Assembly: GCF_010092425.1 (NCBI RefSeq)
Contig: NZ_CP048030.1
Coordinates: forward strand, 310,001-374,000
DNA: 64,000 bases
Reading direction: 5' to 3'
Source: Sinimarinibacterium sp. NLF-5-8
Lineage (GTDB): Bacteria; Pseudomonadota; Gammaproteobacteria; Nevskiales; Nevskiaceae
Shown in pieces: positions 43,101-45,570 of the stretch. The notes beneath the pieces are model-generated. The model had not been told where the DNA came from. It worked only from the letters and a program-made list of their open reading frames with translations, and did no database searches. Both the position numbers and the translations under genes were made by a program. The first letter of the stretch is position 1. Every line of letters starts with the position of its first letter.

Positions 43101-43783
43101 CCGATGCCCAGTGCAGCCAGCCGTGCGTCCAGCAATGCCGGAAAATGTTTGTACCAGGTGGCGTTGAGGGGGGAGGGGTGAGGCAGGGGGTGCAGCTGGA
43201 TGGTGCGCTGGGCGCCACTGGGCGCGCGCATGTCGATGGTGCAGTGGGCGTGGGCTTCAAAACGATCTTCGCGCGCCCAGAAATCGTCAATCGCGGTCTT
43301 GACGGCCTTGGGTTGCAGCAGGCCAAACCATAAAAATGCCTCGCGTCCGAGCGTCATCAGATTCTGGCCTTGCCAGTGTTCAACCAGCAGTTCGGCGATC
43401 AGCGGTTGAAAGCGTTGCTTGATGCGGGTGCTCCAGGCTTTGTTGCCAACGGGTTTGTAGGGCACGGTATTGGCCCAGTAAAAACCCTGGCCAATCGCGC
43501 GCGAGGCGGCAAAGTCGGGCAGGGGTGCGCCGTGCAGGCGTTGATACAGCGTGCGGCGCACCCACTGGCCACCGGCGCCGATGAACGGCTCACCGTGCTG
43601 CACTTCATCGCGTCCGGGGTCGCGGCCAAAAAAGCCGACCGGCGCGCGCGCGTCGCCCAATCCCAGAATCGGTTCCAGCGGGTCTTTGCCGTAGCGGGCG
43701 TAGACCTCGGTATCGATGCCGGTGATTTCGGCGGCTTGCGCGCGAAAGGCGTTGCGTCGCGCGGCGCTCAGGGCTGGGGTCAT
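43097..43783 (-). CDS. Uracil-DNA glycosylase superfamily protein
   Basis: 228 residues. The N-terminal motif APVGFFGRDPGRDEVQHGEP and FIGAGGQWVRRTLYQRL resemble motif A of family 4-type uracil-DNA glycosylases, and PLPHPSPLNATWYKHFP near the end is the HPSP-type motif. Such enzymes excise uracil or other damaged bases, but some members have diverged, so the substrate is uncertain. ATG at 43783 overlaps the TGA of the DAHP synthase gene (ATGA), making it the last gene of that leftward operon. Its final bases overlap the msrA stop. Confidence 0.82.
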   Translation of the reverse strand: MTPALSAARRNAFRAQAAEITGIDTEVYARYGKDPLEPILGLGDARAPVGFFGRDPGRDEVQHGEPFIGAGGQWVRRTLYQRLHGAPLPDFAASRAIGQGFYWANTVPYKPVGNKAWSTRIKQRFQPLIAELLVEHWQGQNLMTLGREAFLWFGLLQPKAVKTAIDDFWAREDRFEAHAHCTIDMRAPSGAQRTIQLHPLPHPSPLNATWYKHFPALLDARLAALGIG

Positions 43784-45054
43784 GCGCATGCGCGGGCTGC
43801 CTGTTCGGTTTGCCAGGGGTTGTTGGGCGCGTTGCTGGCGTTGAGGGCGTTGGCGGTGAGTTGTGCCAGCGCGCGCGCCTGTTCGCCGTTCAGACGCGGG
43901 TCGCACAGGGTTTGGTAGTTCTGGCCCAGGTCATCGGTGCCGAGATTTTGCGGGCCGCCGATGCACTCGGTGACATCCAGCCCGGTCATTTCCAGATGCA
44001 GGCCGCCGACCGTGCCGCCAAGATTGGACTGTACGGCAATGAACTGCTGGATTTCGGCGGCGATGGCGTCGTAGGGGCGAGTCTTGCGGCTGCCGGCGCT
44101 GATGGTGTTGCCATGCATGGGGTCGCAGCTCCAGATCACGGGATGGCGGCTGTTTTGCACCGCGCGCAGCAGCGTCGGCAGTTGCTGCGCCACACGCGCG
44201 GCATTCATCCGCACGATCAGGGTGACGCGACCGGGCTGGTGGTGTGGGTCGAGAATATCGAGAATCCGCAGCAGTTCATCGGCGCTCATCGTCGGTCCGC
44301 ACTTGACCCCCAGCGGATTGGCCAGCCCCCGGCAGTATTCCAGGTGTGCACCGTCGATCTGCCGGGTACGATCGCCAATCCACAGCATGTGCCCCGATCC
44401 GGCGTACCAGCGGCCATCGTCGGCCTGACGGGTGAGGGCAGCTTCATAGGGCAGTAACAGGGCTTCGTGGCTGGTGTAGGTCGGCGTGTTGTCGGCGTCG
44501 AGCGCGCGCAGCCATTCCAGGGTATCGGCGGACTGGCTGTAGGCGTGCAGCATGCGCTGCGGATCAGGCGCGCGCTGTTCGGCGGTGAAGTCGGCGCCGT
44601 TGATGATGTCGCCCCTGAAGCTGGGGAGTTCGACATCGCCGATGCGTTCGGTAGATGAGGAGCGCGGTTTGGCGTATTGCCCGGCGATGCGGGCAACGCG
44701 CACCACGGGTTTGTGGGTGCCCAGGGTGTGTGCCATGTCGAGCAAGGTTTGATGGCTGGCGGCAACGGCGGCTTGTGCGTGGTGAGCGAAGCTTTCGGCG
44801 CAATCACCGCCTTGCAGGAGCAGGGCCTGACCGCGCGCGACCTTGGCGAGATCGGCGCGCAGTTGGTCGATTTGTTCGATGCTCACCAGTGCGGGCTGTG
44901 CCGAGAGCCAGTGCAGCACAGCCTCCAGGCGCGCGCGGTCGGCGTATTCCGGCACTTGCACGATCGGATGCTGCTGCCAGCTGTGCGGCAGCCATTGTCG
45001 GGGCGCGAGGCTGGCGTCTGATTCAGAAGTTTGTGCGGCGCTTGGGCGAGTCAT
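43780..45054 (-). CDS. Class II 3-deoxy-7-phosphoheptulonate (DAHP) synthase
   Basis: 424 residues. It condenses PEP and erythrose 4-phosphate, the first step of the shikimate pathway. This is the plant-type (class II) enzyme: WQQHPIVQVPEYADRARLEA, LLQGGDCAESFAHHAQAAVA, RIAGQYAKPRSS, SHEALLLPYEAALTRQ, RMLHAYSQSADTLEWLRALD and WSCDPMHGNTISAGSRKTRP. GGAG lies 8 nt upstream of the ATG. About 130 nt of leader separates the start from a leader peptide rich in aromatic codons, so aromatic supply should control it by attenuation. The glycosylase gene is coupled downstream. Confidence 0.95.
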   Translation of the reverse strand: MTRPSAAQTSESDASLAPRQWLPHSWQQHPIVQVPEYADRARLEAVLHWLSAQPALVSIEQIDQLRADLAKVARGQALLLQGGDCAESFAHHAQAAVAASHQTLLDMAHTLGTHKPVVRVARIAGQYAKPRSSSTERIGDVELPSFRGDIINGADFTAEQRAPDPQRMLHAYSQSADTLEWLRALDADNTPTYTSHEALLLPYEAALTRQADDGRWYAGSGHMLWIGDRTRQIDGAHLEYCRGLANPLGVKCGPTMSADELLRILDILDPHHQPGRVTLIVRMNAARVAQQLPTLLRAVQNSRHPVIWSCDPMHGNTISAGSRKTRPYDAIAAEIQQFIAVQSNLGGTVGGLHLEMTGLDVTECIGGPQNLGTDDLGQNYQTLCDPRLNGEQARALAQLTANALNASNAPNNPWQTEQAARACA

Positions 45055-45126
45055 GGGGCAATCTCCAGAGGCAAAGGTTGGATGCTTGCAGGAGGTCGAT
45101 GGTTGACTTCAAAGGCTTTGCGCCAG

Positions 45127-45154
45127 AAAACAAAAACCGCCTGCGAGGCGGTTT
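45127..45154 (-). terminator. Attenuator terminator (3:4 hairpin)
   Basis: 9-bp perfect stem (45154-45146 with 45142-45134), 3-nt loop, followed on the minus strand by TTGTTTT. It lies about 70 nt upstream of the DAHP synthase start. Confidence 0.85.
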
Positions 45155-45198
45155 GTTTGAACACAACAGCAAAACCGCCAGCGATCAATAGAGGCGGT
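45127..45198 (-). promoter_or_regulatory. Aromatic amino acid attenuator of the DAHP synthase operon
   Basis: Four complementary segments on the minus strand: 1 ACCGCC (45198-45193, inside the leader peptide), 2 TGGCGGTTTTG (45180-45170), 3 AAACCGCCT (45154-45146), 4 AGGCGGTTT (45142-45134). Pairing 1:2 gives a pause hairpin, 2:3 an antiterminator, and 3:4 a terminator. A ribosome stalled at the Phe-Trp-Tyr codons would cover segment 1 and favour 2:3. This is the textbook trp-type attenuation layout. Confidence 0.85.
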
Positions 45199-45244
45199 AC
45201 CAAAATCGTTGAATGAGGGCGGCGCGAGCCGTTGCGTTGTTCAT
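45185..45244 (-). CDS. Leader peptide with Phe-Trp-Tyr control codons
   Basis: 19 codons: MNNATARAALIQRFWYRLY, then TGA. The run Phe-Trp-Tyr-Arg-Leu-Tyr places codons for all three aromatic residues at the end, immediately before and within segment 1 of the attenuator, so charged tRNA-Phe, tRNA-Trp and tRNA-Tyr would set the outcome. Its ATG overlaps the TGA of the upstream small membrane protein gene (ATGA), allowing translational coupling. No SD is seen. A weak promoter-like pair (TTGCAA-N17-TACCGT on the minus strand) could alternatively start a transcript at or next to the ATG. The peptide itself probably has no other function. Confidence 0.85.
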   Translation of the reverse strand: MNNATARAALIQRFWYRLY

Positions 45245-45570
45245 GGCCGCGCACGGTACACAAGTGCGCGCGCGCTTGCAAGCGGCGGCGGACGGTCGGC
45301 GCGCCGCCGGGGGAGAAGGGCGGCGGCCAGCCGGTTCAAGCTGAGGGTCAGTACGGCATGGATGCCCCATAACTTGAAAGCCATTGCGGCACCAAAGATC
45401 AGAAGCCAGAGATCAAGCGCGGCGATGTTGAGCATGCCGCAGGCGAGCCAGCAATCCCACGCGCCACGGGGCTGTGGTGCAGGGCGGCAGATCAGGCTTG
45501 GCAACGCGGCCAGCAGCATCAGGCCGCTGCCCAGCAGCAGGGGCAAACCAAGAGGGGGGAAAAGGCTCAT
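45241..45570 (-). CDS. Small hypothetical membrane protein upstream of the leader peptide
   Basis: 109 residues with three hydrophobic segments (about 5-25, 40-62 and 64-86) and a basic Arg/Pro-rich tail. I do not recognise the family. Support for it being real: a membrane-like hydrophobic pattern, a good promoter with a Fur-box-like site upstream (TTGTCA 45626-45621, 18-bp spacer, TAAGAT 45602-45597), and an ATGA overlap of its stop with the leader peptide. Against it: no clear SD before ATG 45570. If real, it makes the whole leftward operon iron-responsive. Confidence 0.5.
   Translation of the reverse strand: MSLFPPLGLPLLLGSGLMLLAALPSLICRPAPQPRGAWDCWLACGMLNIAALDLWLLIFGAAMAFKLWGIHAVLTLSLNRLAAALLPRRRADRPPPLASARALVYRARP

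Follow-up and report, generated by a model that had tools for sequence, protein, structure and literature searches.

Regulation at the first step of the shikimate pathway is commonly attributed to allosteric inhibition together with repressors, each of which senses one amino acid. A different principle operates at trpL and pheL of Escherichia coli, where a short leader open reading frame (ORF) with codons for the end product is accompanied by RNA arms that pair as 1:2, 2:3 and 3:4, and an intrinsic terminator stands before the biosynthetic gene. Attenuation before a DAHP synthase gene is already known in Corynebacterium glutamicum and has been proposed in Acholeplasma and for aroF of E. coli and Shewanella. 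Specifically, the aroR-aroF attenuator of C. glutamicum has a Phe-Tyr-Phe leader in a DAHP synthase operon (Neshat et al. 2014, as summarized in the review PMC11802643). The uORFC-13-1 motif upstream of aroF combines a putative upstream ORF (uORF) holding at least one Phe codon with a ribosome-binding site and a terminator, and in the description given in PMC8632094 it was found only in Acholeplasma and environmental sequences. For the aroF leader of E. coli and Shewanella, sensing of Tyr-tRNA has been proposed (PMC2659441, citing Camakaris 1980). In Sinorhizobium meliloti, the trpL attenuator RNA (rnTrpL) is described as leaderless, its 5' end being the ATG of the leader peptide (PMC7298713). 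Among the enzymes themselves, the type IIB DAH7PS of Pseudomonas aeruginosa (PA1901/PhzC, structure 6bmc) is reported to lack the a2a/a2b helices of type IIA (PMC6435475).

The locus considered here lies in a stretch of 64,000 nucleotides from Sinimarinibacterium sp. NLF-5-8, analysed as a whole and referred to as the window. Similar to trpL and pheL, it has a leader with end-product codons, nested arms and a terminator before a biosynthetic gene. Unlike them, leaders of the window type sample three amino acids in one run, are probably leaderless and stand before a gene for a small protein or for class II DAHP synthase, the enzyme of the first shared step. With aroR of C. glutamicum it shares leader peptide attenuation of DAHP synthase and a run of aromatic codons, whereas aroR, compared by description only, contains no Trp, is reported to respond to Phe and not to Tyr, and belongs to a different phylum. 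The uORFC-13-1 motif likewise places a putative uORF and a terminator before a DAHP synthase gene, but is reported with a Phe codon only, and with a ribosome-binding site. The aroF leader of E. coli and Shewanella, also a case of proposed attenuation before a DAHP synthase gene, differs by description in sampling Tyr only and in that aroF is not class II. The probable leaderless start is shared with S. meliloti rnTrpL, which is the Trp leader of trpE(G). The literature covered, mostly outside subscription papers, yielded no account of a leader attenuator for a class II DAHP synthase, of a three-aromatic leader or of the small D-[FYH]-DV protein described below. The locus is very probably a transcription attenuator that works through a translating ribosome, in the manner of trpL and pheL, and pools the three aromatic aminoacyl-tRNAs.

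Anatomy of the leader in the window

An initial annotation had described a complete Phe-Trp-Tyr attenuator before a class II DAHP synthase gene, and its observation of the window is confirmed (Table 1). The leader peptide has 19 codons with the C-terminal residues Phe-Trp-Tyr-Arg-Leu-Tyr, and the four complementary segments follow in order. The downstream gene product matches the class II DAHP synthase profile TIGR01358 (E=1.1e-146). In the terminator scan of the window, the 3:4 hairpin spans 45154-45134 with 9 pairs and is followed by TTGTTTTCTG; arms 1-4 fit within 65 nt, and the DAHP synthase start at 45054 lies about 70 nt past the terminator. Folded separately, the 1:2, 2:3 and 3:4 helices have energies of -10.0, -12.8 and -14.1 kcal/mol, and the fold of the 221-nt leader region has a z value of -2.46, equalled by 3 of 200 shuffles. 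The 3:4 pairing is favoured at the calculated equilibrium in every stall position modelled, so that switching must be kinetic, as is assumed for trp. Directly upstream, a hydrophobic ORF of 109 codons (45570..45241, minus strand) ends in an ATGA placed exactly over the leader AUG.

Table 1. Features of the leader, its promoter-like elements and the downstream gene, in window coordinates
Feature	Position	Strand	Basis
-35-like element TTGCAA, 17 nt before the -10-like element	45276..45281	-	comparative; 7/12 consensus matches
-10-like element TACCGT, ending 8 nt before the leader AUG	45253..45258	-	comparative
Leader peptide ORF, MNNATARAALIQRFWYRLY and stop codon	45185..45244	-	translation; frame conserved in orthologs; no Shine-Dalgarno match found
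Control codons TTT TGG TAC CGC CTC TAT (F-W-Y-R-L-Y)	45188..45205	-	sequence
Arm 1 (ACCGCC), overlapping the Tyr-Arg-Leu codons	45193..45198	-	sequence, separate folds
Arm 2 (GGCGGTTTT), partner of arm 1 (pause hairpin) or arm 3 (antiterminator)	45171..45179	-	folds
Arm 3 (AAACCGCC)	45147..45154	-	terminator scan, folds, covariation alignment
Arm 4 (GGCGGTTT), 3' arm of the terminator	45134..45141	-	terminator scan, folds, covariation alignment
U-rich tail of the terminator, TTGTTTTC	45126..45133	-	sequence, terminator scan
Class II DAHP synthase gene, 424 aa, without the a2a/a2b allosteric insert	43780..45054	-	profile match, alignment

The combination of leader and arms before the DAHP synthase gene is not a product of chance. 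A filter requiring at least four aromatics in seven leader residues, Phe, Trp and Tyr within six, and an antiterminator helix of at least seven pairs before a terminator was passed by one leader in the window (26 terminators), by none in five dinucleotide shuffles (27 terminators) and by none in 213 other loci (245 terminators). Looser parts of the filter were passed in those 213 loci by five leaders (four aromatics in seven) and by three (Phe, Trp and Tyr in six). The filter is a narrow one, as the three orthologs of the window's leader also fail it.

Conservation in two classes of the phylum

Within the window's order (85 genomes), the nearest class II enzymes are those of G332, G333 and G343, with 56-59% identity to the window enzyme over the matched stretch and 49-59% over a longer one, and the leader stands before the orthologous gene in four of the 85, namely the window's genome and these three. 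Their full leaders are MKNPTALAAHTARFWYYRPYR, MKTPTACAALLARFWYRPYFTTAA and MKDYTATARYSARFWRRPFIQQAA, ending before the stop codon in ...ARFWYYRPYR, ...ARFWYRPYFTTAA and ...ARFWRRPFIQQAA, respectively. The aromatic codons and the stems, whose loss in close relatives that keep the gene would have counted against the initial annotation, are both retained in the three nearest orthologs. Each of the four leaders of the window's branch has Phe at codon 14 and Trp directly after it, and in three of them Tyr comes next; the U-tract of the orthologs, TTTCGTGTTTC or TTTTCGATTTC, is weaker than that of the window. A covariance model built from the four leaders (R1) gave 126-156 bits in these genomes, which are exactly those with the orthologous enzyme, and less than 33 in all others of the order, and among 369 genomes of the window's class the window was the only strong match. 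Eighteen loci with weaker R1 matches in the order and class were read and proved to be terminators or coding stretches, none of them a leader. Ten further genomes of the window's genus carry a class II enzyme of another branch of the tree, before which the leader is absent. The window's genome itself has one class II enzyme and two PF00793 matches, which from their length and score we take to be a type I DAHP synthase and probably KdsA.

Across the phylum (378 genomes), R1 matched eight: the window's genome and G455 have the leader, G572 has a leader-like sequence, four show plain terminators, and G224 was already among the weaker matches in the order and class; the one strong match outside the window's class was G455, with 49.9 bits. 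Within the order of G455, 11 of 17 genomes matched at E<=1e-4, and all 11 leaders read RFWYRWYxPA(A/V) up to the stop codon. A second model, R2, was built solely from these 11 leaders, themselves reached via R1, and contains no sequence of the window's class. It retrieves the leader of the window (39.4 bits, E=2.4e-8) and those of G332, G333 and G343 (46-53 bits, E=7e-12 to 3.7e-10). Applied to 332 genomes of the class of G455, R2 matched 12: four known, three without a leader and five with new leaders, which read RFYDRWYIPAA, RYFTRWYGPAA (in two), RYFGRWFPPAA and RFYGRWFPPAA. The cassette also resides on plasmids of A. lipoferum 4B, A. ramasamyi, A. oryzae, A. sp. B510 and A. thermophilum, five Azospirillum leaders that score 34-48 bits with R2. 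In G867, one of the genomes with a new leader, the ordinary class II enzyme is 91-92% identical to that of Azospirillum; given this likeness and the Azospirillum plasmids, the class of G455 is taken to be Alphaproteobacteria (alpha genomes hereafter), with Gammaproteobacteria assumed as the class of the window.

Altogether 25 leader loci were collected (4 + 11 + 5 + 5), a non-independent set, since a single order contributes 11 of them and a single genus 5. Conservation of the aromatic codons and stems, for which the initial annotation had proposed comparison with related genomes, extends to the 21 more distant leaders (16 from genomes of another class and 5 from Azospirillum), all of which keep the aromatic cluster and the stems. 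G572 (L229) was left out of the 25 with an R2 score of only 20 bits; its leader-like MTTHLLQKGWYFTSPK, with stem and terminator, lies directly before a GNAT-like acetyltransferase gene, the family having been assigned by eye. As controls, R2 was scanned against 135 loci of ordinary class II DAHP synthases (80 named, 29 of the window's order, G016, 6 from plasmids and 19 from alpha genomes), none of which gave a match better than E=0.3. Three of them (L098, L121 and L268) have less than 250 nt of upstream DNA, and the leader is absent from the remaining 132. Among 20 class II loci in alpha genomes, R2 matches L279 only, a leader-bearing copy outside the 135. Short aromatic-rich ORFs of another type, with no terminator in the scan, occur upstream of the class II DAHP synthase genes of L081 (Pseudovibrio; MYKPFWAFV) and L108 (a Rhizobiaceae MAG; MKNNFFFWASHCFNPSSAR).

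That all three aromatic residues are sampled in one short run holds in the window and well beyond it: Phe, Trp and Tyr are all among the last leader residues in 24 of the 25 loci, with G343 reading Phe, Trp, Phe and no Tyr in its control region. The order of the trio varies by branch (FWYRWY, FYDRWY, YFTRWY, YFGRWF and FYGRWF), and its retention despite this variation is the strongest sign that the trio is under selection, providing the best evidence that all three residues would be sampled for a reason. The same pattern speaks to the alternative that the attenuator is genuine but set in practice by one amino acid, the other aromatic codons being passengers. The AroR leader of C. glutamicum (Phe-Tyr-Phe) offers a precedent, as it is reported to respond to limitation of Phe and not of Tyr (review PMC11802643), and the constant Phe-Trp of the window's branch, joined by Tyr in three leaders of four, would fit such a reading. 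A single effective codon, however, would not need the trio to persist in 24 of 25 leaders while its order changes, and we therefore consider control by one amino acid rather unlikely and favour the pooling of all three.

Covarying stems, which the initial annotation had named as further support, were found for the terminator, where two pairs change on both sides, whereas the antiterminator displays little covariation. Across 15 leaders, the terminator is 90.5% paired, with two-sided changes at two pairs amounting to 7 cells, a value reached in 0 of 500 shuffles; the number of terminator pairs with a two-sided change is in itself unremarkable (202 of 500 shuffles). In the 11 distant leaders, the 1:2 stem is 100% paired and nearly invariant, arm 1 being without variation there, and the 2:3 antiterminator is paired in 92.2% of cells and changes on both sides only once, a level that 89 of 500 shuffles reach. 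Covariation thus supports the terminator, and it is pairing and position alone that argue for the antiterminator.

A promoter-like element accompanies the leaders. In a survey of 20 of them (all but the five from Azospirillum), 19 have a -35/-10-like pair with a spacing of 16-18 nt and a -10 that ends 6-10 nt before the AUG, the -35 starting with TTGC in 16 of those, and G929 has no such pair. The pairs score 6-10 of 12 consensus positions, and a generic promoter scan that required at least 9 of 12 did not list that of the window. Scores of at least 7 at 5-9 nt before the AUG occur in 13 of 20 leaders versus 10 of 800 random ATGs, and scores of at least 8 in 10 of 20 versus 4 of 800. No Shine-Dalgarno match longer than 3 nt was found in the 20 leaders except for AGGA in G343, which overlaps its -10. 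A promoter-like pair just before the AUG, together with little or no Shine-Dalgarno sequence, suggests that the leader mRNA is probably leaderless, and in the window transcription would be expected to start at the AUG or 0-2 nt before it. Alternatively, since the upstream ORF ends with its ATGA over the leader AUG, translational coupling could take the place of a leaderless start in the window.

That ORF, directly upstream and on the same strand, is also what might commend a simpler account, in which the hairpin is the plain terminator of an upstream transcript lying beside a short ORF that arose by chance. Distant genomes keep the reading frame, the cluster of aromatic residues, all four arms and the promoter-like element, and none of the 245 terminators of other loci has a comparable leader, which makes this account extremely improbable.

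Genes behind the leader and the allosteric segment

Each of the 25 leaders has behind it a gene for class II DAHP synthase, a gene for a small protein that carries a D-[FYH]-D-V motif, or both. The enzyme follows in seven (G000, G332, G333, G343, G929, G979 and G1066), so that the leader is conserved with a biosynthetic gene in four of four genomes of the order that have the orthologous enzyme and in three genomes of another class. The small protein follows in 21. In G333 and G343 it is separate and its gene overlaps that of the enzyme by ATGA, and in G332 (L141) the two form one polypeptide with the small protein at the N-terminal end (FNLDHDVITGDSI... before DAWHPQSW), a natural fusion suggesting that the small protein and the enzyme work together. 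It stands behind the leader without the enzyme in 11 + 2 alpha genomes (the start codon is ambiguous in G817) and likewise on the five Azospirillum plasmids, whose annotation lists it as hypothetical. The small proteins measure 40-71 aa (an Azospirillum example begins MFDFDVVTGPT...), and only D, D and V are invariant among 14 that were aligned. Pfam and NCBIfam returned nothing for five of them at E<=5, and tblastn with one of them against the plasmid collection gave no match; a DNA search found the locus of that protein on the five Azospirillum plasmids.

All 16 leader-bearing alpha genomes (Azospirillum plasmids aside) hold a class II enzyme elsewhere, which lacks the leader in 15; in G813 just 132 nt of upstream DNA precede it. 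Thirteen of these genomes combine leader and small protein only and have one separate class II enzyme each, with no leader in 12 (G813 is the thirteenth), and in three alpha genomes the leader-controlled enzyme is a second class II copy. Because the outputs replace each other behind the same leader, overlap by ATGA in two genomes and are fused in one, we tentatively envision an aromatic-starvation cassette with two interchangeable outputs, either a class II DAHP synthase or a small protein acting on the resident enzyme, for example by relieving feedback inhibition, a reading that we hold possible rather than likely. The cassette of the window's lineage is without the small protein, and its enzyme without the Trp-allosteric helices; on this reading, control would have moved there from protein to RNA.

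The identity of the neighbouring gene also matters for the possibility that the terminated leader is mainly a trans-acting small RNA, or that its peptide acts in trans, with attenuation in cis being secondary. Leaderless trpL RNA and its peptide are reported to act in trans in S. meliloti (PMC7298713), and in a 501-base search the window matches the whole of Rfam RF00624 (Pseudomonas sRNA P9) with E=3e-5. With 32.7 bits, however, the window does not reach the P9 gathering score of 43. The best three P9 matches in other genomes have leader ORFs of their own before other genes, and the neighbour of the leader is a DAHP synthase and/or the small protein in 25 of 25 loci, so that a main role in trans is very improbable. 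With Rfam 15, only two tRNAs in the window reach the gathering threshold, and eight related leader loci gave no Rfam match at E<=0.1. The notion that P9 is itself a DAHP synthase leader was rejected, as its best matches (L002, L003 and L004) lie before other genes; no DAHP synthase was found at the other P9 loci. In these three loci P9 resembles a leader-peptide attenuator with Ile/Trp codons and a terminator (MNTHTTTTHLIITIIPNEWWVF, MQSQLSIFQQIITLIQRGWWVC and MNTNLTQQIARIIIIP), and the two best matches precede similar small proteins (EILAADSAINRKDF..., SnoaL-like by eye).

The enzyme of the window scores 488.9 bits with TIGR01358, under the NCBIfam cut-off of 614.7, probably because an internal segment is missing, and automatic annotation may consequently fail to name it. 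The segment aligned to residues 170-205 has 36 residues in the window, 40 in G332, 68 in G333 and 73 in G343, whereas the ordinary class II enzymes compared (29 from the order and 10 named ones from alpha/beta) have 87-89. By this alignment, the window enzyme lacks the a2a/a2b part of the Trp allosteric site, and the three orthologs have lost or shortened the segment. PMC6435475 describes these helices as building the allosteric sites together with an N-terminal extension, and associates their absence in PA1901 with insensitivity. Similar to type IIB PA1901/PhzC, the window enzyme is without a2a/a2b; its alignment with 6bmc is a single block, that with 5uxm is split in two. Unlike type IIB, it scores higher in phmmer with the type IIA enzyme PA2843 (5uxm, 404 bits) than with 6bmc (329 bits), and a tree built without PA1901 places it with leader-bearing enzymes among the alpha/beta class II. 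Its nearest relatives keep part of the insert, so the segment loss looks independent. A general rule by which attenuation replaces allostery is weakened by two observations: the three leader-bearing alpha enzymes keep the full 89-residue segment, and G016 has lost the segment yet has no leader. The loss therefore belongs to the window's branch and not to the cassette.

In a maximum-likelihood tree (IQ-TREE, 39 of 53 rows, 14 rows of the window's order having been dropped for thinning), the four enzymes of the window's branch group at 99/99, the window on a long branch, and lie near alpha/beta enzymes, with a branch of 100/99 support between them and the order's ordinary class II enzymes. A first FastTree also groups the four (0.958), and a quicker FastTree without the insert columns separates the window enzyme from its three leader-bearing relatives; the IQ-TREE result is the one preferred here. 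A single clade of all seven leader-bearing enzymes was not supported (66/54). The grouping suggests transfer between classes, in one direction or the other, together with the leader.

Proposed mechanism and significance

From a leader with end-product codons, nested arms with a terminator, and conservation with the gene, we infer the start site, stalling, termination and tRNA response of the attenuator as follows. Transcription would start at or next to the leader AUG, with a ribosome following the RNA polymerase. When charged Phe-, Trp- or Tyr-tRNA is short, the ribosome would stall on the F-W-Y-R-L-Y codons; since arm 1 overlaps the Tyr-Arg-Leu codons, a ribosome halted on any of the three aromatic residues would cover arm 1 and free arm 2. 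Arm 2 could then pair with arm 3 before arm 4 is made, no terminator would form, and the DAHP synthase gene would be transcribed. Conversely, when all three tRNAs are ample, the ribosome would reach the stop codon and cover the start of arm 2, allowing 3:4 to form and transcription to terminate. Should translation be absent, 1:2 would form and transcription would likewise end. The locus of the window is one member of a cassette family that occurs in two classes of the phylum and has as its target class II DAHP synthase, the small D-[FYH]-DV protein, or both.

Three points go beyond the initial annotation: the leader is probably leaderless, a small protein accompanies it at 21 of the 25 loci, and the enzyme of the window is without its allosteric segment. 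The recurring three-aromatic leader points to an overlooked way of switching the shikimate pathway on when Phe, Trp or Tyr becomes scarce. A single short RNA would read out whichever of the three charged tRNAs is lowest and exert control where the pathways to all three begin, with the trio retained over long distances while its order is reshuffled. For the conserved small protein, the fusion, the ATGA overlap and the interchange with DAHP synthase provide a concrete first hypothesis in the tractable Azospirillum, and because the enzymes of the window's branch have lost or shortened the helices, they offer a direct test of whether RNA control can replace protein feedback. DAHP synthase is, moreover, a target in the engineering of aromatic products.
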